Shown here: positions 2,710-52,313 of the stretch, in pieces | Layout: each line of letters starts with the position of its first letter | Numbering within the stretch: position 1 is the stretch's first letter | NCBI RefSeq assembly: GCF_030124175.1 | Contig: NZ_JASKMT010000006.1 | Span: 186,001-250,000, forward strand | Length of the DNA stretch: 64,000 nt | Source of the DNA: Streptomyces sp. 549 | GTDB lineage: Bacteria; Actinomycetota; Actinomycetes; Streptomycetales; Streptomycetaceae | Direction: 5' to 3' | The notes under the pieces: model-generated | Told to the model about the DNA's origin: nothing | The model's database searches: none | What the model saw: only the letters and a program-made list of their open reading frames with translations | Made by a program: the position numbers and the translations under genes

Positions 2710-3600
2710 GTGGCATCCTCCCCCGTGGAGTGTTCCTCCTGCGGCGAGACCGACGACCTGCGGGGCGCGCCGGAGGCCGGCGACATCCGGATCACCTGCG
2801 GCAGTTGCGGTGCGCACTGGCTGCGCGGCGGTCCGCGCTGCGCGACCTGCGGCGGCGGCGATCTCGTCGAGCGCCCGCAGGCGATGACACGTCATTCCCG
2901 GGGCACCCAGCTGTCCATCATCGGCTGGCAGCAGGTACCGCTGTGCCGGGTCTGCGACGCCGCGGCGCTGCGGACGTCCATCGCCGACAACGTGCCGCTC
3001 CCCCACACCTATGTGGCGGCCGCCCTGCGGGACGCGTCACCGGACACCCGGCCGCCCGCGACCGGCCCGGCCCGCCCGGCGGACGCACCGGCCCGGCCCG
3101 GCCCCCGCACCCGGTCCGCCCCGGCCGAGCCGCAGCCCGCCCCGCCCTCGAAGACGCCGAAGACCCCGCAGGCCGCGCAGGCCGCGCAGGCCGCGCAACC
3201 CCCGGCGGCGGGCGCGACCGGGGCGACCCGGCCGACGGGCGGCGGGGCGACTCGGCAGCCCGGCGGTCCACCCGCGCGCAGGCCGGGGACCAGGCCGCCC
3301 GCCGGTGCGGTGCCGACCGTCCGGCAGGCGATCCAGGCGTTCCTGACCGAGTCGTCGGGGGATGTCGACCACACCGCGCTGCTCCTGCTCGGCACGCACC
3401 TGGGGTCGGCCAGCCGGCTGTCGGTACTGGAGGAGCGGCAGGCCGCCGCCGACCTCGCCACCTGGGCTGCCGACCGCTGGCCCGACCGGCAGGCCGCCGC
3501 CCGCAGCCGCGCCCTCGACACCCTGTGCCGCGCGGTGGACTTCTGGGGTGCCCGGGGCTGGCTGGCCTCCGACCCGGCCGCGCACCTGCGTCCGGACTGA
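2710..3600 (+). CDS. Zinc-ribbon protein with Pro/Ala linker and C-terminal helical domain
   Basis: I do not recognise a named family for this 296-residue protein. The N-terminus has three C-x-x-C pairs (CSSC near residue 7, CGSC near 30, CATC near 44), consistent with one or two zinc ribbons. Residues about 105-195 are a Pro/Ala/Gly-rich linker with an AAQAAQAAQ run. The last ~95 residues are a compact helical domain (TVRQAIQAFLTE to HLRPD) that loosely recalls SAM-like core-binding folds, which is a guess only. The start is GTG 2710, after GGAG at good spacing. Zinc ribbon plus helical domain suggests nucleic-acid or protein binding in the cytoplasm. Confidence 0.7.
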   Translation: MASSPVECSSCGETDDLRGAPEAGDIRITCGSCGAHWLRGGPRCATCGGGDLVERPQAMTRHSRGTQLSIIGWQQVPLCRVCDAAALRTSIADNVPLPHTYVAAALRDASPDTRPPATGPARPADAPARPGPRTRSAPAEPQPAPPSKTPKTPQAAQAAQAAQPPAAGATGATRPTGGGATRQPGGPPARRPGTRPPAGAVPTVRQAIQAFLTESSGDVDHTALLLLGTHLGSASRLSVLEERQAAADLATWAADRWPDRQAAARSRALDTLCRAVDFWGARGWLASDPAAHLRPD

Positions 3601-3667
3601 GGCAGGGGGCAGGACGCCCCCTGCACACAGGGAGACGCGGGGCGGAGAGTTGCGCGGGTGCGGCGTC

Positions 3668-4066
3668 TCAGCCTGCGGCGTCCAGGCGCTTCCGCAGCGT
3701 GCGGGCGAAGTCCTCCGCCGCTGCCAGCGAGGCCCGCAGGGAGGCGCATCGCGCCTCGGCCACCTCCCGGTACGCGTCGAGCCGCTGCCGCAGCCGCTCC
3801 CGCTCTGCCGGGTCGTCCCCGTCCGACGCCTGCAGTGCGTCGGCGACCTCCAGCAGGTCCCGCATCTCGTCCAGGGAGAGGTCCAGCGGCTTCATCTGGC
3901 GCACGACCCGGAGGCGTTCGATGTCGGCCTCGTCGTAGAGCCGGAAACCTCCCTTGCTGCGGGCGCTCGGAGTGACGAGGCCGACGTCCTCGTAGTGGCG
4001 GATGGTGCGCAGCGACAGGCCGGTACGCTCGGCCACCTCGCCGATCTGCATCTGGCGTTCCGCCAT
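3668..4066 (-). CDS. MerR-family transcriptional regulator
   Basis: This 132-residue regulator has the MerR winged helix at its N-terminus: IGEVAERTGLSLRTIRHYED near residue 8, then GFRLYDEADIERL. A dimerisation coiled coil follows. The short C-terminus has no cysteine pattern for metals, so the signal is not obvious. The start is ATG 4066, preceded by GGAGAG. It is divergent from the SulP transporter, and a dyad resembling MerR operators lies just upstream of the transporter's transcript, so it probably controls that gene and perhaps itself. Confidence 0.85.
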   Translation of the reverse strand: MAERQMQIGEVAERTGLSLRTIRHYEDVGLVTPSARSKGGFRLYDEADIERLRVVRQMKPLDLSLDEMRDLLEVADALQASDGDDPAERERLRQRLDAYREVAEARCASLRASLAAAEDFARTLRKRLDAAG

Positions 4067-4206
4067 CCCGGTCGCTCTCCTCGGTCGTGTGGTGGGTGGG
4101 TCCACCCGGCGGGGACGCCTGCGAGTCCGAACAGCGGTCCAGTACGTGACGTTAATCACCAGGCCACGGCGTTCCTTTACCTGGTATTCACCGTTCCGAC
4201 CGCGCA

Positions 4207-4231
4207 TTCGACCCTCACGTCAGGGTAGAGT
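4207..4231 (+). promoter_or_regulatory. Candidate MerR-type promoter/operator
   Basis: ACCCT (4211-4215), six bases, AGGGT (4222-4226) is a dyad in the 406-bp space between the MerR gene and the SulP gene. A TTCGAC element at 4207-4212 could be a -35 hexamer, with AT-richer sequence after the dyad. MerR proteins act on dyads lying between -35 and -10. Beyond this, 4067-4472 contains no gene that I can support. Confidence 0.35.
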
Positions 4232-4472
4232 TTTACGTGGCTCACCGCGCTGTACACGCAGCCGCGTGGGCCGCCGCAGCGCGGACCGTGCAACCGGTCC
4301 CGGCGGCACCCACAGCCTTCCGGGCAATGATGCCCGACCGGCAGCCGAGACGCTGCCCCCGCCCCGGCGGGCCGCCATCGAGAGTGCGCCCGCTCCTTCG
4401 GTTCCACCACCGTGTGGGCCGTGCCCCGAAGTGCGTGCAGCGGTGTCTGTGCGCCTGAGCAGAAACGGTTGC

Positions 4473-5975
4473 ATGTCCTCCTCGCTGCCCGCGGCCTCCC
4501 GGCTGCGTCTGTCCCGGCCTGACTGGCTGGCGTCTCCGAAGGTGTTCCGTACCGAGGTCCTGGCCGGCCTGGTGGTCGCGCTGGCGTTGATCCCGGAGGC
4601 GATCTCGTTCTCCATCATCGCCGGTGTCGACCCGGCGGTGGGCCTGTTCGCCTCGTTCACGATGGCCGTGGTCATCTCCATCGTCGGTGGCCGCAAGGCC
4701 ATGATCTCCGCCGCGACCGGCGCGATGGCCCTGGTCATCGCGCCCCTGAACCACCAGTACGGGCTGGGCTACCTGATCGGCGCGGTCATCCTGGGCGGCC
4801 TGATGCAGATCGTCATGGGAGCCGTCGGCGTCGCCAAACTGATGCGGTTCGTACCCCGCTCGGTCATGGTCGGCTTCGTCAACGCCCTGGCCATCCTCAT
4901 CTTCATGGCCCAGATCCCCGAGATGCGCGACGTGCCGTGGGCGGTCTACCCGCTCGTCGTCGCCGGCCTCGCCCTGATGGTGTTCTTCCCGAAGATCACC
5001 ACCGTGGTCCCCGCACCCCTGGTCTCCATCGTCACCCTCACCGTCATCACCGTGGCCGCCGGCATCGCCGTGCCCAACGTCGGCGACAAGGGTGAGCTGC
5101 CCTCCTCGCTGCCCATCCCCGGCCTGCCCGACATGCCCCTGACCCTGGACGCGCTCACCACCATCGCCCCCTACGCGTTCGCCTTCGCACTGGTCGGCCT
5201 GATGGAGTCGCTGATGACGGCGAAACTCGTCGACGACATCACCGACACCCACTCCAACAAGACCCGCGAGTCCATCGGCCAGGGCGTCGCCAACGTCATC
5301 ACCGGCTTCTTCGGCGGCATGGGCGGCTGCGCCATGATCGGCCAGACCATGATCAACGTGAAGACCTCCGGCGCCCGCACCCGCCTGTCCACCTTCCTCT
5401 CCGGCGTCTTCCTGATGATCCTGGTCGTCGTCTTCGGACCCGTCGTCTCCACCATCCCCATGGCCGCGCTCGTCGCGGTGATGATCCTGGTCGCGTTCGC
5501 CACCTTCGACTGGCACTCCGTCCACCCCAAGACCCTCAGGCGCATGCCGCTGGGCGAGACCGTGGTCATGACCGTCACCGTCGTCGTGGTCGTCGCCACC
5601 CACAACCTCGCCATCGGCGTCATCGTCGGCTGCATCACCGCCATGGTCATCTTCGCCAAGCGCGTCGCCCGCCTCGCCGAGGTCTCCGGTGTGGTCGACC
5701 CCGACGGCAACCAGGTCGTCTACGCCGTCACCGGGGAGTTGTTCTTCGCCTCCTCCAACGACCTCGTCTACCAGTTCAACTACCGCGACGACCCCGACGA
5801 CGTCGTCATCGACCTCACCGACGCCCACATCTGGGACGCCTCCTCCGTCGCCGCCCTCGACGCCATCGAGACCAAGTACGCCACCCGCGGCAAGAAGGTC
5901 ACCATCATCGGCCTCAACAAGGTCAGCGCCGAGATGCACGACAAACTCGCCGGACAACTCACCGCCGGACACTGA
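4473..5975 (+). CDS. SulP-family anion transporter with STAS domain
   Basis: This 500-residue integral membrane protein is of the SulP/SLC26 family, which moves sulfate, bicarbonate or other anions. The transporter core spans residues 20-400, with [20 protein letters not shown] near residue 38 (first helices), [15 protein letters not shown] and [15 protein letters not shown] near 290. A cytoplasmic STAS domain occupies about residues 410-500 ([20 protein letters not shown]), matching SulP architecture. ATG 4473 gives a normal N-terminus; longer in-frame upstream sequence looks non-coding. It is divergent from a MerR regulator. Substrate is undetermined, since no sulfate-assimilation or carbonic-anhydrase gene is adjacent. 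Confidence 0.85.
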
Positions 5976-5983
5976 ACCGGCCG

Positions 5984-6018
5984 ACCGCCGGCGCCCGCCC
6001 CTCGCGGGTCCCGGCGGT
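5984..6018 (+). terminator. Hairpin after the SulP gene
   Basis: ACCGCCGG at 5984-5991 pairs with CCGGCGGT at 6011-6018, with further pairing inside, nine bases after the SulP stop codon. There is no T-run, as is common in Streptomyces. Confidence 0.6.
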
Positions 6019-6081
6019 CTTCCCGACCCGCGGTCGGACGGGTCATTCTGCCCTGACGGACCCGTCCGGCCGCGTCGCACC

Positions 6082-6095
6082 AGGAGGCACCGCTG
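6082..6095 (+). promoter_or_regulatory. Ribosome binding site that points to a CTG start
   Basis: A perfect AGGAGG (6082-6087) sits five bases before CTG 6093. The frame is open only from the stop codon at 6054, and no ATG, GTG or TTG lies in frame until ATG 6264. This site therefore decides the start of the MFS transporter. Confidence 0.65.
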
Positions 6096-7391
6096 AGTAC
6101 GCAGGCAGACCCCGCCGCACGGGCCGCGAAGGCCCGGCAGAGCGGAGAACCGCCCGCCGCCGGCGGGCGGTTCTCCGGGTGGCGGATCGTCGGCCTGAGC
6201 GCTGCGGCACTGGCCCTGACCGCACCGGGTCAGACCGCGGGCATCTCCGTCTTCGTCGACCCGATGATCGCCGACCTCGGGATCAGCCGCACGGCCGTCT
6301 CCACCGCCTACCTCACCGGCACGCTGGTGGGCGCGTGCGCGATGCCGTCGATCGGCCGCTGCGTGGACCGGTACGGCCCCCGCGCGGTGATGGCCGTGGT
6401 CGGCGCGGTCTTCGGCGCCGTCCTGCTGGCGCTGTCCTTCACCTCCGGCATCGTCGGCCTGACCGCCGGCTTCGCGGGCGTCCGCATGGCCGGCCAGGGC
6501 GCCCTCACGCTGGTGGCCACCACCACGGTCGCCTACTGGTTCGACCGGCGACGCGGGCTCGCCCTGGGCCTCACCAGCGCCGTCGGCGCCGCCGGCATCT
6601 CGCTGGCCCCCCTGCTGATCGAGGTGCTGATCGCCGACGTCGGCTGGCGCCGGGCCTGGGCCGTCGAGGGTGTGCTGATCTGGGCCCTGGTGGTGCCCAT
6701 CGCCCTGCTGGGCATCCGCAACCGGCCCGCGGACATCGGCCAGCACGTGGACGGCGTGCCGCCCGCGCCCGGCGCGGAGGACCACACAGCCGCGGGCTGG
6801 CCGCTGCGGCAGGTGCTGCGCAGCGGCATGTTCTGGGCGGTCGCGGCGTGCCTGTCGGCCAGCAGCATGCTGGTGACGGGCCTCAACTTCCACCAGATCG
6901 CCCTGCTCGGCGAGCGCGGACTGAGCCCGGTCGCCGCCGCGGCCAACTTCCTCCCGCAGACCCTCGCCGCGCTGCTGGCCGGCTTCGCGGCCGGGGCGCT
7001 GCTCGACCGCGTCTCCCCCAAGGCGGTGCTGACGGCGGCCATGGCGGTGCTCGCCGCGGCTGTGCTGTGCGTGCGCTTCGTGGAGCCCGGCTGGACGGCG
7101 CTGGCCTTCGGGTTCCTGCTCGGCGGCTCCGGCGGAGTGCTGCGGTCGGTGGAGGCCGCCGCGTTCCCGCGGTACTTCGGGACCGCCCACCTCGGGGCGA
7201 TCCGCGGTTGCGCCCACACCATCACGGTGGGGGCCAGCGCGTTCGGGCCGCTTGCGGTGGCGATGGGCCGGGATCTCACCGGCAGCTACGCCCCGGCGAT
7301 GCTCGCGTTCGCCGTTCTGCCGGCGGTCGCGGCCGTCCTGGTGCTGTGCGCCCGCGAGCCCGCCGTCCGAAAGGTACGGGATCAGTCGTGA
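6093..7391 (+). CDS. MFS transporter, probable CTG start
   Basis: This 432-residue major facilitator belongs to the group resembling CynX and oxalate/formate antiporters. Twelve hydrophobic segments are visible, with the loop motif GRCVDRYGPR after helix 2. Starting at CTG 6093 provides the first transmembrane segment (WRIVGLSAAALALTAPG). Starting at the first conventional codon, ATG 6264, would delete it. The cytoplasmic N-terminus (residues 17-29) is encoded by a long perfect hairpin. The 3' end overlaps the convergent TSUP permease by 10 bp. Substrate unknown. Confidence 0.75.
   Translation: MSTQADPAARAAKARQSGEPPAAGGRFSGWRIVGLSAAALALTAPGQTAGISVFVDPMIADLGISRTAVSTAYLTGTLVGACAMPSIGRCVDRYGPRAVMAVVGAVFGAVLLALSFTSGIVGLTAGFAGVRMAGQGALTLVATTTVAYWFDRRRGLALGLTSAVGAAGISLAPLLIEVLIADVGWRRAWAVEGVLIWALVVPIALLGIRNRPADIGQHVDGVPPAPGAEDHTAAGWPLRQVLRSGMFWAVAACLSASSMLVTGLNFHQIALLGERGLSPVAAAANFLPQTLAALLAGFAAGALLDRVSPKAVLTAAMAVLAAAVLCVRFVEPGWTALAFGFLLGGSGGVLRSVEAAAFPRYFGTAHLGAIRGCAHTITVGASAFGPLAVAMGRDLTGSYAPAMLAFAVLPAVAAVLVLCAREPAVRKVRDQS
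6143..6177. repeat. 16-bp perfect inverted repeat inside the MFS 5' coding region
   Basis: CGGAGAACCGCCCGCC (6143-6158) is complementary to 6162-6177 with a three-base loop. It lies about 50 bp after the CTG start. It could be a leaderless remnant of a terminator, an attenuator, or a site that makes translation structure-dependent. Confidence 0.85.
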
Positions 7392-8224
7392 CGGGCGAGC
7401 TTCACCGCGGAGACGAGCAGGATCACGGCCAGCACGGGCATGAGCACCAGGTCAGGGAAGACTCCCAGGAGCAGCCCGCCCAGCACCGCACCGACGACTG
7501 AGCCCACTGCCATGAGCAGGGCGAAGCGGAGGTTCGCGCCGAGGACAGCGAAACTGCCGTCCCGGCTGTAGCGGGCGAACGCGACCAGCATCGTCGGCAA
7601 CGACACCAGCAGCGAGAGGCTTCCCGCGGTCTTGATGTCCTCGCCGAACAGCAGCACGATCGTCGGGATCAGCAGCTCGCCCCCGGCGACCCCCATGATC
7701 GCCGCCACCACCCCGATACCGAACCCGGCAGCGACCCCGCAGGGGACCTGGGCCCACAGCGGCAGGGTGAGCGCGTCCACGGCGGTGGTGTGCGTGACCA
7801 CCAAGGCCACTGCCATGAGCACCATCAGAGCCGCCAGCACCCTGCACAGGGTGGCGCTGCGCATGCGCACGGCCCAGGTGGCCCCGACCCAGGCCCCCAG
7901 CAGGCTGCCCGCCAGCAGGTTGACCGCGACGGGCCAGCGCGCGGCCAGGTCGGCGGCGGGGACCACTGCCAGCCGCGCGGGCAGCGCGACCAGAACGACG
8001 ACCAGGCTCATCGCCTTGTTCAGGATGACTGCCGAGAGCGCGGCGAACCCGAAGAGGCTGATCAGCAGCGGCAGGCGGAACTCCGCGCCGCCCAGCCCGA
8101 TCATCCCGCCCAGCACGCCGACCGCCGCTCCCGCGCCGAACACCTCGGGCATCGAACGGGTCGAACGGGTCGAGCGGGTCGGGACCAGGTTCCGGTCAGT
8201 GGCCATGACGCGCATTCTCGCCAC
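7382..8224 (-). CDS. TSUP (TauE/SafE) family membrane permease
   Basis: A 280-residue membrane protein of the sulfite exporter TauE/SafE family, which moves sulfur-containing organic anions or sulfite. The two homologous halves are visible: GGMIGLGGAEFRLPLLIS near residue 40 and IMGVAGGELLIPTIVLLFG near 175, each followed by several hydrophobic helices. The N-terminus carries an Arg-Ser-Thr repeat from three 9-bp units (8153-8179). Start options are GTG 8224 or ATG 8206, and neither has a strong ribosome binding site. It converges with and overlaps the MFS gene by 10 bp, so the pair may interfere at the 3' ends. Confidence 0.8.
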   Translation of the reverse strand: MARMRVMATDRNLVPTRSTRSTRSMPEVFGAGAAVGVLGGMIGLGGAEFRLPLLISLFGFAALSAVILNKAMSLVVVLVALPARLAVVPAADLAARWPVAVNLLAGSLLGAWVGATWAVRMRSATLCRVLAALMVLMAVALVVTHTTAVDALTLPLWAQVPCGVAAGFGIGVVAAIMGVAGGELLIPTIVLLFGEDIKTAGSLSLLVSLPTMLVAFARYSRDGSFAVLGANLRFALLMAVGSVVGAVLGGLLLGVFPDLVLMPVLAVILLVSAVKLARHD

Positions 8225-8417
8225 TCACCGCCCCGGCCTGCCATGGAACAGGCGCGGCTTCGGAGCATGGCACCGGGCAGGCGCTCGGGACTTGTCCGAA
8301 CCGCCGTGACGACACCGTCGACGCAACCCGGTCGGAGTCGCGCACACCGCACCCCCGGCGGGGGCGGACCACCGGGGGTGCGAGTCGGGTGGGGCGGCGG
8401 CGGGCCGCCCGGGCGGG

Positions 8418-9625
<1,208 letters not shown>

Positions 9626-45790: not shown

Positions 45791-46921
45791 TCAGCCCGCG
45801 TACTTGGAGTCGGCCGTCGGGTCCATGGCGAGGCGGTAGCCGCGCTTGACGACGGTCTGGATGAGCCTGGGCGCGCCGAGGGAGGACCGCAGCCGGGCCA
45901 TCGCCGTCTCGACGGCGTGCTCGTCCCGCCCGGAGCCGGGCAGGGCCCGCAGCAGCTCGGCCCGGGGCACGACCCAGCCGGGGCGCCGGGCGAGGGCGCG
46001 CAGCAGCGCCATGCCGGCCGGGGGCACCGGACGCAGGTCGCCGTCGACGACCGCGGCGTGGCCACGGATCTCGACCCGGTGCCCGGCCAGCGGCAGCACG
46101 CGGGTGCGGCCGGGCAGTTCGTGGCAGAGCAGCTGCACCAGAGGCCCGAGCCGGTAGCGGTCGGGCATCGTGGTGGGCACGTCGTGGGCCTGGAGCGGCA
46201 TGGCGGTGACGGGTCCGACGCAGGCGCAGAGCACGTCGCGGCGCAGCGCGCCGAGCAGTTCCTCGCGCACGCCGAGCTGTTCGGCCCGGTCGATCAGGGA
46301 CGCGGCGGCGGGTGCGCTGGTGAAGGTGACGGCGTCGACGCCGCCGCCGATGACGGCCTCGACGAGCCGGTCGAGCGGAGTGAGGTCCTGCGGGGGCCTC
46401 CAGCGGTACACGGGCACGGTGACGACCTCGGCGCCGCTGTCGCGCAGCGCCTCGCAGAAGCCGGGCAGGGGTTCGCCGTGGAGCTGGACGGCGATGCGGC
46501 GGCCGGCGACGCCTTCGGCGAGCAGCCGGTCCAGTACCTCGGCCATGGACTCCGACGCCGGGGACCACTTCTCCTTCAGGCCCGCCGCCCGGATGGCGCC
46601 ACGCACCTTGGGCCCGCGGGCGAGGAGTTCGACGGTGCCCAGGCGGGCGAGCAGCGCCTCGCCCAGGCCCCAGCCGTCGGCGGCCTCGATCCAGCCGCGG
46701 AAGCCGATGGCGGTGGCGGCGATCACGGTGTCGGGGGCGTCGGCGAGCAGGTGCTCGGTGGCGCGCAGCAGTTCGCTGTCGTCGGCGAGCGGCACGATGC
46801 GCAGCGCCGGTGCGTGCTGCACGGTCGCGCCGCGGCGGGTGAGCAGGGTGCCGAGTTCCTCGGCCCTGCGGGCAGCGGTCACCCCGATGGTGAATCCGTC
46901 GAGTGGTTTGACCTCGTGCAT
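45791..46921 (-). CDS. nnaR: NnaR: HemD-like domain fused to winged helix, nitrate assimilation regulator
   Basis: A 376-residue fusion. Residues 1-255 form a uroporphyrinogen-III synthase-like domain (GFTIGVTAARRAEELGTLLT, VDAVTFTSAPAAASLIDRAE). Residues 285-370 form an OmpR-type winged helix (PPAGMALLRALARRPGWVVP, ETAMARLRSSLGAPRLIQTV, VVKRGYRLA). This matches NnaR of S. coelicolor, described as a co-activator with GlnR of nitrate and nitrite assimilation genes; the HemD domain is not proven to make uroporphyrinogen. It lies downstream of narK on the same strand, separated by 258 bp with a 23-bp repeat array. Confidence 0.88.
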   Translation of the reverse strand: MHEVKPLDGFTIGVTAARRAEELGTLLTRRGATVQHAPALRIVPLADDSELLRATEHLLADAPDTVIAATAIGFRGWIEAADGWGLGEALLARLGTVELLARGPKVRGAIRAAGLKEKWSPASESMAEVLDRLLAEGVAGRRIAVQLHGEPLPGFCEALRDSGAEVVTVPVYRWRPPQDLTPLDRLVEAVIGGGVDAVTFTSAPAAASLIDRAEQLGVREELLGALRRDVLCACVGPVTAMPLQAHDVPTTMPDRYRLGPLVQLLCHELPGRTRVLPLAGHRVEIRGHAAVVDGDLRPVPPAGMALLRALARRPGWVVPRAELLRALPGSGRDEHAVETAMARLRSSLGAPRLIQTVVKRGYRLAMDPTADSKYAG

Positions 46922-47179: not shown

Positions 47180-48568
47180 TCAGACCCGGGCGAAGGCGGG
47201 GGCGGTTTCGGCCGGCTGGGCGGTGCCGTCGGCGGCGGGTGCGGTTGAGGTGGGGCGCGGGCGGCGCAGGTATACGGCCCAGGTGACTGCGCCGCACACC
47301 AGGTAGAAGCCGAGGAAGACGACGAACGCGCTGGTGCCGCTGCCGGAGGTGAGGAAGGACTGCCGGAAGGCGAGGTTGATGCCGAGCCCGCCGACGGCGC
47401 CGACCGCTCCGATGAGGCCGATGGCGGCACCGGAGAGGCGTCGTCCGTAGCGGGACGCCTCCTCGCCGGTGAGTCCGAGCGAGACGGCCTTGGCGTGGTA
47501 GATGCCGGGGATCATCTTGTAGGTGGAACCGTTGCCGAGGCCGGTGAGGACGAAGAGGCAGACGAAACCGATGAGGAACACCGGCAGCGACTCGCGGACG
47601 GACGCGGCGATGACGATGCCCGTGGCGGCGGCCATCGCGGCGAAGTTCCACAGCGTGATGCGGGCGCCGCCCCAGCGGTCGGCGAGCCAGCCGCCGACCG
47701 GGCGGATCAGGGAGCCCAGCAGCGGTCCGATGAAGGTGAGCGAGGCGGCCTGGAGCGGGGTGCGGTCGAACTGGTTCTGGAGGACCAGGCCGAACGCGAA
47801 GCTGTAGCCGATGAACGAGCCGAAGGTGCCGACGTAGAGGAACGACATGATCCAGGTGTGCGGGTCGCGGACGGACTCGCGGGCGGCGCCGGTGTCGTTG
47901 CGGACGGGCGCCAGGTTGTCCATGTACCGCCACGCGCAGTAGGCCGAGAGCAGGATCAGCGGCAGGTAGATGCCGAGCAGCAGCCGGGGCGAGCCGGCTC
48001 CGGCGGTGGCGATGACCAGCAGCGCGACGAGCTGGATGACGGGCACGCCGATGTTGCCGCCGCCCGCGTTGAGGCCCAGCGCCCAGCCCTTCTTCCGCAG
48101 CGGGAAGAAGGAGTTGATGTTGGTCATGGAGGAGGCGAAGTTGCCGCCGCCGATGCCGGTGAGCAGGGCGACCAGCATGAACGTGGTGTAGGAGGTGCCG
48201 GGTTCCATGACGACGAAGGCGGCGATGGTCGGCAGCAGCAGCATGCCTGCGGCGAACACCGTCCAGTTGCGCCCGCCGAACCGGGCGACGGCGAAGGTGT
48301 ACGGGACCCGGATGCAGGCGCCGACCAGGGTCGCCATGGCCACCAGGAAGAACTTGCCGGCCGGGTCGATGCCGTACTCGGGTCCCATGAAGAGCACCAG
48401 GACGGACCACAGCGTCCAGATGGAGAAGCCGATGTGCTCGGACAGGATGGAGAACATCAGGTTGCGGCGGGCGACTCGTTCGCCGCCGGACTTCCAGAAG
48501 GTCTCGTCCTCCGGGTCCCACTTCTCGATCCAGCGGCCTCCCTCGCGTGTGCCGGGCCGGGCTGTCAT
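47180..48568 (-). CDS. narK: NarK-type nitrate/nitrite MFS transporter
   Basis: A 462-residue membrane transporter of the nitrate/nitrite porter group. The first nitrate signature is GIGGGNFASSMTNINSFFP near residue 120 and the second is GLNAGGGNIGVPVIQ near 145; both Gly-rich helices are intact. About 12 hydrophobic segments are present. The N-terminal WDPEDETFWKSGGERVARRN is typical of actinobacterial NarK. The start ATG 48568 follows AGGAGG. It imports nitrate or exports nitrite, and pairing with nnaR and a GlnR-like site supports a role in assimilation. Confidence 0.92.
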   Translation of the reverse strand: MTARPGTREGGRWIEKWDPEDETFWKSGGERVARRNLMFSILSEHIGFSIWTLWSVLVLFMGPEYGIDPAGKFFLVAMATLVGACIRVPYTFAVARFGGRNWTVFAAGMLLLPTIAAFVVMEPGTSYTTFMLVALLTGIGGGNFASSMTNINSFFPLRKKGWALGLNAGGGNIGVPVIQLVALLVIATAGAGSPRLLLGIYLPLILLSAYCAWRYMDNLAPVRNDTGAARESVRDPHTWIMSFLYVGTFGSFIGYSFAFGLVLQNQFDRTPLQAASLTFIGPLLGSLIRPVGGWLADRWGGARITLWNFAAMAAATGIVIAASVRESLPVFLIGFVCLFVLTGLGNGSTYKMIPGIYHAKAVSLGLTGEEASRYGRRLSGAAIGLIGAVGAVGGLGINLAFRQSFLTSGSGTSAFVVFLGFYLVCGAVTWAVYLRRPRPTSTAPAADGTAQPAETAPAFARV

Positions 48569-48851: not shown

Positions 48852-49718
48852 TCAGCCGGCCTGGGCGTGGTCGGCTGGTGGTGGCAGGTCGAGCTGTGCG
48901 GCGACGGTCAGCGCGCACAGCCCGCTGTCGCGGCCGGCGCCGGGCCGGGCGGTCAGCAGCCGCGGCCCGTCGGGCGTGGCGGCGACGGACACCAGGGACG
49001 GGCCGACGCGGTAGTCGATGGCGTCCAGGACGTCACCGACCAGGCGGCGAATCGGTTCTTCATCGAGGTCCTCGTCGGGGCGCAGGTCGGGACGGACGGC
49101 GAGCACGGTGTGTGCGCCGCCGAAGGAGTGCGCCTCGGCCTCGTAGCGCGGGCCCGGCAGGTACTGCTCGACGAGCAGCGGCGCGTCGTCGGGCAGCGTG
49201 GTCGCCAGCTCCCGGGCGGACGCAGCGTCCCGCAGGGTGTGGTTCCCGGCCGGGGTGGTGCCGCGCGGCACCACCGTGCAGGGGAAGCCGACCTTGGCCG
49301 CGGCCTTCGCCAGCGCGGCGGGCTCGCACAGCTCGAAGCGCACCGGGTGGGCGGTGAACTGGTTGGTGCGGTCCCTCAGCACCGCCGGGTCGGTCAGCGC
49401 TGCGACCACCGGTGGGGGGTTGCCCGGCAGTCGCAGCGCTGCGTTGGCCCACGAGGCGGCGAGCGCGCTGGCGGGGTCGAAGCCGAAGACGGCCGCGCGG
49501 TCGTGGCGGGCGAACGCGCCGAGCGCGCCGACGAGAGCGCGGCGGTCGCTCCAGTCGGCCTCGATCATGCCGTCGGCCTCTGCGGCGGTCTGCCGCATGC
49601 CGGGCGCCGCGAGGTCGGGGCCCACCACGAGGGTGCGGGCCCCGACCCTGCGTGCCGCCCTTACCGTCCGCAGGCGGGGGCTGAGCAGGACGGCGGTGGG
49701 CGTGGGGGGTGGTCTCAT
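48852..49718 (-). CDS. Divergent ATP-grasp-like protein
   Basis: A 288-residue protein resembling the ATP-grasp ligases of the next gene but degraded at key sites. Where the family has the ATP-binding V-K-P lysine, this protein reads CTVVPRGTTPAGN near residue 150. The following LLVEQYLPGPRYEAEAHSFG segment is well kept. The C-terminus (SVAATPDGPRLLTARPGAGR) lacks the usual metal-binding E-x-N. It overlaps the upstream ligase gene by ATGA. It may be a non-catalytic partner that binds a peptide or the active ligase, or an enzyme with altered chemistry. Confidence 0.65.
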   Translation of the reverse strand: MRPPPTPTAVLLSPRLRTVRAARRVGARTLVVGPDLAAPGMRQTAAEADGMIEADWSDRRALVGALGAFARHDRAAVFGFDPASALAASWANAALRLPGNPPPVVAALTDPAVLRDRTNQFTAHPVRFELCEPAALAKAAAKVGFPCTVVPRGTTPAGNHTLRDAASARELATTLPDDAPLLVEQYLPGPRYEAEAHSFGGAHTVLAVRPDLRPDEDLDEEPIRRLVGDVLDAIDYRVGPSLVSVAATPDGPRLLTARPGAGRDSGLCALTVAAQLDLPPPADHAQAG

Positions 49719-50920
49719 GGGGCGGGCTCCGGAGCGCCGTGGACCACGTGCTCCTCAAGCCAGCCTTCGCAGGTGTGCAGCCGGTCCATCAGTTCGCTGG
49801 AGTCGCCGCCGGCCACGATGGTCCAGCAGACGCCTGCGGCGCTGTGCAGCGGTCCGGCACTGACGTCACCGGGTGCGAGGTTGGGTACGTGCTCCCGCAC
49901 CCAGTCGAAGGGCGGCGGCCCGGGGACGGACACCACCCGTCCGGGGCGGGGGGTGATGCACAGTTCTCCGTGCACCGCGCGCGGCACCTCAAGGGGTTCC
50001 GCGCGGAGCGGCAGTCCGGTGGCGAGCCGGAACCAGGTCTCCTTCGGGTCGATGCCGTAGGTGCGGCGGATGAGCTGCGGGATGCGAGCTCCACCCACCC
50101 GCGAGGCGACCTCGCAGAGCAGCAGGCGATCATCGAGTGTGTGGAACACCTCCAGGTGGTATGCGCCGACCTCCGGCGCGGGCATCACTTTCATCAGCGT
50201 GTCGAAGAAGTCGGCGAGCCGTGCCGACATCGGTTCGTGCGGGTGGAGCAGGACCGAGCCGTTGTTGGCGCCGGACAGCGCCTCCAGGCAGCCGGTGTAG
50301 TAGCGGCCGGCCGACACGAAGCGGAAGTCCGGGGCGATGACCGCGTCGACGTGGTACACCTCGCCGCGGACGAACTCCTCCGCCATCAGGTCGTGCCGCC
50401 ACCTCCGTGCGCCGAAGGCGGCGAGGTCCGACTGCGACCTCAGTACCGTCACCCCGCGCGAGCCGCCCTCGCTGACGGGTTTCACCACCACCGGGTACCC
50501 CCGCTCGGCGACGAACCCCTCCAGGTCGCGGAAGGACCGCAGCCGGGTGTACGCCGGAACGGGCACCCCCTGCGCGGCCAGGTCCTTCATCAGTGCCTTG
50601 TCCCGGAAGGCCCGGGCGCTGGCCTCGCTCTGGCCGGGCACGGCGAGCCGGTCCCGCAGCCGGCCGACCCGTTCGAGGTCGTACTCGTTGTCCGTGAGGA
50701 CGTGCTCGAAGGGCGCCTGACCGACTGCCCGGGCGGCCATCCGCAGAGCGGCCAGCTCGGCGTAAGACCCGGCCGCGATGCCGGTGACCTGCTCGTAGTG
50801 CGCGTACCGCTCAGGTCCGGGCAGCGGATTCCCGGTGAACACCACCATGTCGGAGGCGAGTTCCGGAAGCATCTCCGCGTAGTCGTCGCTCGGACCACCG
50901 TTGACGACGAGCGTGGTCAT
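49715..50920 (-). CDS. ATP-grasp ligase
   Basis: A 401-residue ATP-grasp enzyme, a fold that activates a carboxylate as acyl-phosphate and joins it to an amine, hydroxyl or thiol. The preATP-grasp domain is at residues 1-110. The ATP site shows GYPVVVKPVSEGGSRGVTVL near residue 146 (Lys and Gly-rich loop) and LMAEEFVRGEVYHVDAV near 185. The metal site is HLEVFHTLDDRLLLCEVASR near 260; the typical Asn of E-x-N is Ser. It lies 40 bp downstream of the small peptide gene on the same strand, so the peptide is the likeliest substrate (inference). Confidence 0.85.
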   Translation of the reverse strand: MTTLVVNGGPSDDYAEMLPELASDMVVFTGNPLPGPERYAHYEQVTGIAAGSYAELAALRMAARAVGQAPFEHVLTDNEYDLERVGRLRDRLAVPGQSEASARAFRDKALMKDLAAQGVPVPAYTRLRSFRDLEGFVAERGYPVVVKPVSEGGSRGVTVLRSQSDLAAFGARRWRHDLMAEEFVRGEVYHVDAVIAPDFRFVSAGRYYTGCLEALSGANNGSVLLHPHEPMSARLADFFDTLMKVMPAPEVGAYHLEVFHTLDDRLLLCEVASRVGGARIPQLIRRTYGIDPKETWFRLATGLPLRAEPLEVPRAVHGELCITPRPGRVVSVPGPPPFDWVREHVPNLAPGDVSAGPLHSAAGVCWTIVAGGDSSELMDRLHTCEGWLEEHVVHGAPEPAP

Positions 50921-50960
50921 CTGCAGATTCTCCGAGTGTCAGCCGGCTGCGACGGGAGTG

Positions 50961-51107
50961 TCAGCCCCAGGACCAGCTGGTGTCCCCGGACGCCTCGACC
51001 TGTGCCGCGACGGGTGCCTGGCTCGCCCCCGAGGAGGCCAGCTGGGCGCCGCCGAACGCCAGCGCGATGATGAAAGGTACGGCAAAGACGCGAGTGAACC
51101 TCTTCAC
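50961..51107 (-). CDS. Small leader-bearing peptide, candidate ATP-grasp substrate
   Basis: A 48-residue peptide. A Sec-like signal spans roughly residues 1-30 (MKRFTRVFAVPFIIALAFGG, then AQLASSGASQA). The remaining tail reads PVAAQVEASGDTSWSWG: Glu, Asp, Ser, Thr and two Trp in the last ten residues. The GTG start at 51107 follows AGGGAGGA at five bases, one of the best ribosome binding sites in the window. It is the first gene of the unit with two ATP-grasp proteins and is divergent from a LuxR regulator. It could be a modified peptide precursor or a signalling peptide. Confidence 0.75.
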   Translation of the reverse strand: MKRFTRVFAVPFIIALAFGGAQLASSGASQAPVAAQVEASGDTSWSWG

Positions 51108-51207
51108 AAGATTCCTCCCTGTTGAACTCGGCAGCGTCCCCAACCGACCGCTGCATTCCACGGTTGATATTCACGTGGCGCGGCAGCGGTTCCAAGGGGT
51201 TTGCCCT

Positions 51208-51236
51208 GGCGGCATGTCGCCTGGCACGTTGTCGCC
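51208..51236 (+). promoter_or_regulatory. Direct repeats in the peptide/LuxR divergent promoter
   Basis: GGCGGCATGTCGCC (51208-51221) and GGCACGTTGTCGCC (51223-51236) share GGC-n4/5-TGTCGCC and lie 15 bp apart. They sit 37-65 bp upstream of the LuxR start codon. A binding site for the LuxR protein is plausible. Confidence 0.4.
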
Positions 51237-51272
51237 TCAGGAGGCTCGGATGAGATCAAGGAAGCTGGGACT

Positions 51273-52313
51273 GTGCTGGAGACAGGCGAAATAGACGCGA
51301 CGGCCTCCCGGGTCTACCGGCTTCGGGTCATCCACGCCACCGACACCGCCGAACGCATCGCGGCACGTGCCGGACTCACCGCCGAGGCCGTCGCCGCGGC
51401 GGAGGCCCGGCTCGCCGCGCTGGGCCTGCTCCAGACGGCGCCCGGTGGCGGCTGGGCCGCGGTCAGCCCGGAGACCGCCGCGGACACGCTGCTGGCCAAC
51501 GCGCAGAAGGACGTACTGGAGCGCCAGACGGCCATCGCGAGCACCCGGGCGCGGCTGCACGCCCTCACCGGCGAGTACCTGGAAGCCCGCAGCATGCGCT
51601 CGGACAAGGGCAGCATCGAGGTCATCGAGGGCATCGACAGCATCCGCTCGGTGATGGACGACCTGGCGCGGCACTGCACGACGGCGGTCGACGCTCTGGT
51701 GCCGGGCGGCGGCATGAACGAGGCGAGCATCGGCTCGGCCCTCCCCCTGGACCTGGAGACGCTGGCCCGCGGCGTGCGGATGCGCACCCTGTTCCAGCAC
51801 AGCGCGCAGAAGCACCGGCCCACCGCCCGGTACGCGGCGCGGATCAGCGCGGCGGGCGCACAGGTGCGCAGCACCGGGGTGCTGCCGTCGCGCATGCTCA
51901 TCACCGACCGCGGTTCGGCGGTGCTGCCGGTCGATCCGGCGAACCCGGCGGCCGGTGTCGTCCTGGTCCGCGACCCGGCGATGCTGGGCTTCCTGCGGCG
52001 GCTGTTCGACCACCACTGGGAGCGCGGCCTGGAGTTCACCGCGCCGCAGGAGGCCGAGCGGGAGGGCGCCGGAGGCGACGAGGGCGGTGTGGGCAGTGTG
52101 GGACTGGAAGGTGGCGGCTCCGAGCCGAGCGAGCTGGAACGGGACGTGCTGCTGCTGATGGCGGGCGGCAAGAAGAACGAGGTGATCGCGCACCAGCTCG
52201 GCATCTCGCCGCGTTCGGTCAGCCGCATCGTCGCCAACCTGATGGACCGGCTGGATGCCACCAGCCGCTTCCAGGCCGGGGTGCGCGCCGCCATGAACGG
52301 CTGGCTCTCCTGA
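51273..52313 (+). CDS. LuxR-type regulator with TrmB-like N-terminus
   Basis: A 346-residue regulator. Residues 1-70 are a TrmB-like winged helix (YRLRVIHATDTAERIAARAG, AEAVAAAEARLAALGLLQTA). Residues 110-245 form a phospholipase-D-like sensing fold typical of this group (SIEVIEGIDSIRSVMDDLAR). The C-terminal LuxR helix-turn-helix is LERDVLLLMAGGKKNEVIAH, then LGISPRSVSRIVANLMDRLD. The GTG 51273 start is chosen by position after AAGGAAG. It is divergent from the small peptide and probably controls the peptide/ATP-grasp unit. Confidence 0.8.
   Translation: MLETGEIDATASRVYRLRVIHATDTAERIAARAGLTAEAVAAAEARLAALGLLQTAPGGGWAAVSPETAADTLLANAQKDVLERQTAIASTRARLHALTGEYLEARSMRSDKGSIEVIEGIDSIRSVMDDLARHCTTAVDALVPGGGMNEASIGSALPLDLETLARGVRMRTLFQHSAQKHRPTARYAARISAAGAQVRSTGVLPSRMLITDRGSAVLPVDPANPAAGVVLVRDPAMLGFLRRLFDHHWERGLEFTAPQEAEREGAGGDEGGVGSVGLEGGGSEPSELERDVLLLMAGGKKNEVIAHQLGISPRSVSRIVANLMDRLDATSRFQAGVRAAMNGWLS

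Follow-up and report, generated by a model that had tools for sequence, protein, structure and literature searches.

A candidate peptide-signal circuit pairing tryptophan-ended peptides with divergent TrmB-PLD-LuxR regulators in Streptomyces

A small peptide gene, two ATP-grasp genes (agA and agB) and a divergently oriented regulator gene in Streptomyces sp. 549 probably form a peptide-signal circuit, in which the peptide would be the precursor of a signal, the regulator its receptor and the ATP-grasp enzyme the output. The locus lies within a stretch of 64,000 nucleotides (contig NZ_JASKMT010000006.1, positions 186,001 to 250,000), here called the window; the source genome (G000) comprises 6.0 Mb in 72 contigs. 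The initial annotation of this DNA had proposed a peptide modified by the ATP-grasp enzymes and, as an alternative, a circuit sensed by the LuxR protein. The alternative fits the comparative evidence best, signaling itself being what we infer from it. Throughout the genome comparison, the regulator appears as the constant partner of the peptide and the ATP-grasp gene as the exception; for this reason, the reading of the peptide as a graspetide or other ribosomally synthesized and post-translationally modified peptide (RiPP) was demoted to a rival. The components of the locus, with their positions in the window, are as follows.

50961-51107, minus strand: peptide precursor gene, 48 amino acids, GTG start, sequence MKRFTRVFAVPFIIALAFGGAQLASSGASQAPVAAQVEASGDTSWSWG
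51113-51119: ribosome-binding site of the peptide gene (gggagga), ahead of the GTG start
49715-50920, minus strand: agA, intact ATP-grasp ligase, probably of the L-amino-acid-ligase type, 401 amino acids
48852-49718, minus strand: agB, degenerate ATP-grasp, 288 amino acids
51273-52313, plus strand: regulator, 346 amino acids, with a predicted TrmB-like winged helix, long helix, PLD-like domain and LuxR helix-turn-helix (HTH)
51207-51236: conserved 30-bp element between the peptide and regulator genes, two related 15-bp halves, putative operator and/or promoter
47180-48568: MFS gene, flank, part of the conserved surroundings and outside the system
45791-46921: HemD-like gene, flank, part of the conserved surroundings and outside the system

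The annotated positions and frames of these genes were confirmed: the 48-residue peptide starts with a leader resembling a signal sequence and finishes in GDTSWSWG, and its gene is upstream of one intact and one degenerate ATP-grasp gene and divergent from the regulator. In the window, 40 bases separate the peptide stop from the start of agA, and agA and agB overlap by 4 bases. This distance is 40 to 54 bases in all three loci of the window clade, as expected of a shared transcript, and the peptide gene, agA and agB are likely to be transcribed together. The GTG start of the regulator at 51273 agrees with the start of its relatives.

The same peptide gene is found in the same position in two other genomes, G089 (L003/L054; MKRFTRTFAASLILALALGGAQLSAAGAAAASEPSTGSEVSSEGNYWG) and G202 (L004/L055; MKRFTRIFAGAMIAALAVVGAPLASAAVSAPTATVAGDDSFTAW), where the arrangement is identical and the agA protein and the regulator are 74% and 72 to 73% identical, respectively, to those of the window. 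The three peptides keep the leader (MKRFTR.FA), which resembles a Sec signal and by which the peptide is apparently exported, and vary in the tail except for a tryptophan (W) at or beside the end. A search with the three sequences retrieved 3 of 392 genomes of the genus at an E value below 1e-20, with no fourth copy at that threshold (next best, 2.3e-6), and 353 of the 392 at E values up to 1. This search is insensitive, given that it missed the peptides of the seven sibling loci described below (for example, the best E value in G037 was 0.84). A scan against NCBIfam gave weak matches for five peptides, all under the cut-off, which were set aside. Because it occurs in the same place in 3 of the 392 genomes and has equivalents in 7 more, the peptide gene is real, beyond chance.

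The next closest regulators, 57 to 63% identical by blastp (best copy per genome), were found in G037, G113, G120, G121, G135, G156 and G186, each of which carries two or three tandem regulator copies. Four of these seven genomes, those with a long enough contig, have the same HemD-like and MFS neighbors as the window. All seven sibling loci (L118 to L124 in our numbering) encode a peptide followed by a full-length ATP-grasp protein of the agB lineage (∼410 amino acids), and in five of them (L118-L122) the ATP-grasp gene is followed by a gene of one family, assigned to DUF1015 by Pfam on three members. The sibling peptides likewise bear signals and end in NIWA, NIWF, SLWY, SVWD or NYWE, the last of which is present twice in the G113 and G135 peptides. 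Relative to the siblings, the window clade retains the peptide and the regulator, has agA in this position, lacks the DUF1015 gene and carries a degenerate agB; one ATP-grasp lineage has been replaced by another. The spacing between peptide and regulator is 155 to 165 bp in the eight loci of this ten-locus subfamily that have a clear regulator start.

Distant regulators (∼31 to 39% identity) also adjoin small signal-bearing peptides with W motifs, such as VIGWD in two to five copies, SINWDTAP repeats, GAGWDTAP repeats, DPIWG, DLPWT, DDQWG, DMIWQ and AGWQ. To count such pairs, a strict rule was applied to the 40 regulator matches ranked next after L088 by E value. The rule called for an open reading frame (ORF) of 28 to 110 amino acids with a Shine-Dalgarno-like stretch, a basic start, a hydrophobic stretch and W among the last 4 residues, divergent from the regulator and at most 1 kb upstream; it was fixed after the pattern had been seen, and the test loci, several of them from single genomes, were fetched blind but inspected before it was fixed. 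The rule was satisfied by 23 of the 40 regulator loci and by 8 of 234 control genes. The eight passing controls are near-identical ORFs from one place in related agA-cluster loci, with one locus doubled (L039/L056), and are antisense to an MFS-type gene where one was called (4 of 8). By eye, with other arrangements and distances up to 2.2 kb allowed, a signal-bearing W-motif peptide was seen in 33 of the 40. The strict rule also found 9 of 18 among L125-L142, that is, 18 of the 20 loci L069-L088 (those of G102 and G226 were omitted), fetched after some of the peptides had been seen. The pattern extends beyond the genus Streptomyces (L187, L189 and L194) and onto plasmids, where two of three loci examined have the peptide (L216 and L217, with none in L215). 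For example, the Streptomyces yangpuensis plasmid psa3239 encodes a peptide ending in DDLGWQ; the annotations there read helix-turn-helix regulator and hypothetical protein. A literature search, conducted largely outside subscription journals and bioRxiv, returned no description of peptides accompanying these regulators.

The tails consist of motifs of 4 or 5 residues, mostly with W followed by 0 to 2 residues at the end, and the motif is present in at least two copies in 24 of 52 collected peptides (for example, VIGWD, SINWD, GAGWD and DPIWG); this set lacks L137 and L152, which the script missed, and L149 and L181, found later, carry no label. On a tree of 75 regulators, 55 of them rows with motif labels assigned by hand, the two residues on either side of W underwent 24 changes, whereas 200 shuffles of the labels required 40.4 on average and never fewer than 36; second and third tandem regulator copies and loci without a label were excluded from the labels. 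Such coupling of motif and regulator demonstrates co-inheritance and is compatible with, but no proof of, receptor-ligand pairing.

The annotation of the regulator as a TrmB-LuxR protein is supported by a predicted structure. Above the cut-offs, Pfam detects the LuxR part alone (GerE, 42.6 bits; cut-off, 23.5), and the Pfam TrmB match falls under its cut-off and covers the C-terminal HTH alone. In the structure model (mean pLDDT, 89.5; pTM, 0.67), a winged helix at the N terminus is followed by a long helix, then by a PLD-like domain and, at the C terminus, by the LuxR HTH. Foldseek matched the model to archaeal TrmBL2 (5bpd; E value of 1.3e-11; whole-chain template modeling [TM] score, 0.34/0.44), to Nuc (1byr; E value of 5.6e-6; TM score of 0.73 over the target) and to the sugar-binding domain of TrmB (2f5t; E value of 8.2e-5). 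The regulator is thus predicted to combine a TrmB winged helix with a PLD-like domain.

The 30-bp element is conserved in the intergenic region of all ten subfamily loci, and its halves share 8 to 13 of 15 positions in the seven elements compared. With up to 3 mismatches allowed, it matches each of the ten genomes once, at the intergenic site, and the reversed pattern matches once across the ten, in G000; since the pattern was built from these same ten loci, the absence of a second site is the sole informative part. Outside this subfamily, 17 of 68 regulators have an upstream palindrome, TGGCA-N4-6-TGCCA, with no more than one mismatch; the corresponding rate is 3.4% both for shuffled sequence and for 208 control genes. 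It was chosen after the INWD loci had been inspected, the window subfamily has no match that good, and we treat it as a lead.

The output of the circuit is suggested by the ATP-grasp genes. agA matches Pfam ATP-grasp at 34.5 bits (cut-off, 27), and its residues K147, R206, E257 and E270 are invariant in all 12 aligned sequences; its LAL_C2 match is under the cut-off (18.6 versus 29.4). agB has no Pfam family even at an E value of 0.1. Aligned with its full-length relatives, it has lost the catalytic lysine, two glutamates and the C-terminal ∼120 residues, LAL_C2 included; the relative in L120, for example, exceeds the cut-offs for both ATP-grasp_4 and LAL_C2 (48.8 bits for the latter; cut-off, 29.4). 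agB is 58% identical in G089 and in G202 is reduced to ∼95 recognizable residues within the ∼390 bases that separate agA from the MFS gene. It is a decaying former enzyme. Among the matches listed (25 of 49 for NCBIfam), profile searches of NCBIfam and the Protein Data Bank (PDB) brought up L-amino acid ligase together with PurK/Ddl-like proteins. The closest solved structures by sequence profile are the L-amino acid ligase 4wd3 for agA and BL00235 (3vot) for agB, and the closeness of both to free L-amino acid ligases makes a small amide the probable output. Compared with the BL00235 and BacD types of these ligases, agA thus has the ATP-grasp domain and the catalytic residues with a subthreshold LAL_C2, and the window agB has neither catalytic residues nor LAL_C2.

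The comparison itself shows the order of the genes and their joint conservation, the repeated motif, its coupling to the regulator and the conserved element; the steps of the model, namely, export, trimming, re-entry, binding, autoregulation and the product of the enzyme, are inferred. The precursor would be exported by Sec and trimmed outside the cell to its C-terminal, W-bearing tail; from repeat precursors (SINWD-TAP-...-SINWD), extracellular peptidases would release several copies. Streptomyces tripeptidyl aminopeptidases cut off Ala-Pro-containing tripeptides and are candidates for this trimming. The tail would then re-enter through a peptide importer and bind to the divergent regulator, for which the PLD-like middle domain is the likeliest site. 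The loaded regulator would work at the 30-bp element and switch the peptide-agA-agB operon, so that the peptide would amplify its own synthesis and turn on the ATP-grasp enzyme, which is probably of the L-amino-acid-ligase type and whose product would be a small amide or a dipeptide.

Several observations weigh against the signal circuit. Downstream of the peptide gene, all ten window-subfamily loci carry an ATP-grasp gene, which makes modification of the tail possible. No importer or protease was recognized in the locus, and the ligand of the TrmB protein with such a fold is, by the title of 2f5t, a sugar and not a peptide. Seven of the 40 test loci had no such peptide by eye (L148, L154, L161, L164, L166, L178 and L180), and in a class-wide sample with 1.5-kb flanks (L183 and L185-L212) peptides were seen by eye in only ∼8 of 29. 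Related loci are not independent: their relatedness inflates the counts, and co-inheritance alone could link motif to regulator. The 30-bp element may be a conserved promoter, and the peptide might be an effector under the control of the regulator rather than its ligand.

Three other readings were weighed on this evidence. The one nearest to the initial annotation, a ribosomal peptide product whose tail is ligated or cross-linked by the ATP-grasp enzyme before export, with the regulator controlling the cluster, is unlikely. Besides the ten of ten subfamily loci, in which two lineages have occupied the slot, it draws support from a third ATP-grasp lineage after a PLSLNWD-ending peptide in L136, ∼7 kb from a regulator. 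In the same direction, the decRiPPter study reported that candidate RiPP families with an ATP-grasp in Streptomyces form a large group distinct from those already known (PMC7794033). Against this stand the regulator loci at large: ATP-grasp genes of the agA and agB kinds were found in 10 of 67 and not in the other 57, most of which have a peptide, with the limit that 40 of the loci span just 4 to 6 kb. Two grounds that the initial annotation itself had named as refuting also weaken this reading. First, in none of 24 other loci with agA relatives (23 places, since L005 and L039 are identical) was such a peptide found within 500 bases upstream. agA as a general partner of the peptide was thereby ruled out, its ∼50% identical relatives having shown none upstream. 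Second, the tail is not conserved as a modified core would be. The ten tails share W at or next to the end and nothing more, and the acceptor and donor groups noted in the window tail form no conserved Ser/Thr-Asp/Glu pattern, several tails (NIWA and NIWF) having no acid near W. Graspetides (the microviridin group) and pheganomycin loci resemble this one in that a small peptide gene adjoins an ATP-grasp gene; the graspetides differ in their conserved Thr/Ser-Asp/Glu core, and the locus here is set apart from both by its ATP-grasp proteins, whose closest kin appear to be free L-amino acid ligases, and by its Sec-like leader. Accessory genes of the pheganomycin type were not noticed in the window locus, for which no dedicated search was made.

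An exported antimicrobial, cell-wall or surface peptide under regulator control, with no role as a ligand, is quite improbable. The apparent export of the peptide and a family including Rpf-like transglycosylases near 14 of 67 regulators would suit it, and effectors also diversify; conversely, short tails with 4- or 5-residue motifs, often repeated and ending in W plus 0 to 2 residues, are as for released signals, and the regulator is constant while neighboring functions vary widely. We regard it as rather doubtful, too, that the ATP-grasp pair is an unrelated biosynthetic unit inserted beside the peptide/regulator pair and outside its control. The swaps and losses in the slot (the agB remnant in L055, the absent DUF1015 gene and agA in its stead) speak for such an insertion, and the short distance from peptide stop to agA start throughout the window clade speaks against it.

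Among known systems, the signal circuit is closest in logic to the RRNPP quorum sensing of Firmicutes, namely, Rgg/SHP, PlcR/PapR, NprR and Rap/Phr. In both, a small propeptide, whose export is here judged by sequence, lies beside a cytosolic DNA-binding regulator, the signal is expected at the C-terminal end of the propeptide and the target promoter is local. Unlike the TPR receptors of RRNPP systems, the receptor here is predicted to join a TrmB winged helix, a PLD-like domain and a LuxR HTH, and the peptides end in a W motif, often in multiple copies, in Streptomyces and relatives. Archaeal TrmB and TrmBL proteins share the winged helix, long helix and PLD-like domain (5bpd, 3qph and 2f5t; whole-chain TM scores of 0.3 to 0.45); the regulator here differs from them in its additional C-terminal LuxR HTH and its adjoining small peptide gene, and 2f5t binds sugar. 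We know of no earlier case of the TrmB-PLD-LuxR architecture as a receptor fold for peptides.

Streptomyces signaling is familiar chiefly through small molecules such as gamma-butyrolactones. For the family as a whole, the evidence is evenly poised on whether it is an undescribed, widespread peptide language of Streptomyces and relatives, in which peptides with one to six W-ending copies would be read by their own TrmB-PLD-LuxR receptors, often with a third protein of ∼100 residues, and tied to different biosynthetic clusters, in the window to an amino-acid-ligase enzyme. It may be a chemical language by which antibiotic makers turn on gene clusters. If the peptides are signals, a new peptide-receptor fold joins bacterial quorum sensing, and many predictable peptides of 4 to 8 residues could be synthesized and tested for waking silent biosynthetic clusters; because the motif indicates which peptide suits which cluster, the idea is directly testable.

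A small protein of ∼90 to 115 residues adjoins the regulator or peptide in 35 of the 70 loci searched (for example, L125, L127, L158, L173, L216 and L217) and could represent another, third part of the circuit. No Pfam family exceeded the cut-off in the five members scanned. The protein was not found in the window subfamily (L002, L054, L055 and L118-L124), and it occurs in L135, L154 and L180, loci with no visible peptide. Other neighbors include EPSP-synthase, FemAB/GNAT-like proteins, FabF-like synthases, 4'-phosphopantetheinyl transferases, an MbnB-type enzyme and Rpf-like proteins; such wide variety is as expected for a signal that serves many clusters. The Rpf-like family, which occurs, for example, in L125, L127 and L128 (Pfam was run on the L125 and L168 members), may tie the regulator/peptide pairs to germination or cell-wall growth.

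Individual loci illustrate this variety. GAGWD-repeat peptides accompany FemAB/GNAT-like and EPSP-synthase-like genes in L137, L144, L146, L149, L150, L152, L157 and L217; the plasmid locus L217 additionally carries gpmI, ArsR and a permease, a set that presumably recalls organoarsenic clusters. In L136 (positions 876-2407), the peptide ends in DDVYPLSLNWD, and the third-lineage ATP-grasp gene, which comes immediately after it, is followed by a class II tRNA-synthetase-like gene. In L165 (positions 4035-5768), a peptide ending in DNMGWQ precedes an MbnB/TglH/ChrH-type enzyme. The source genome itself has a second regulator of the family (L213; contig C26, 14949-15806) with a divergent signal-bearing peptide ending in VVLGHQSWGP. 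Next comes a LysW-type carrier protein with EDWGE at its end, which makes this probably a carrier-protein biosynthetic cluster; no such peptide was seen at the third regulator of the source genome (L214).

Relatives of agA occur in other settings as well. Several that are ∼50% identical lie in clusters with a PALP-type pyridoxal phosphate (PLP) enzyme, an MFS gene and agB-like and glutathione-synthetase-like ATP-grasps. In L056 (positions 3035-8819), agA and these four partners make up a cluster that looks like a ligase pathway making a small peptide; similar gene orders were seen by eye in L033, L036 and L057, Pfam having been run on L056 alone. No W-tailed peptides were recognized by eye near the distant ATP-grasp relatives in L008-L031. 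In L019, an agA-like ATP-grasp gene is followed by a peptide (reoriented positions 2796-3116) that begins like a signal sequence and repeats TNAGPG; it contains no W and perhaps belongs to another peptide class. At the agA locus of Streptomyces ficellus (L048), a regulator and a peptide (...TTNDLTWGP) lie ∼3 kb away.

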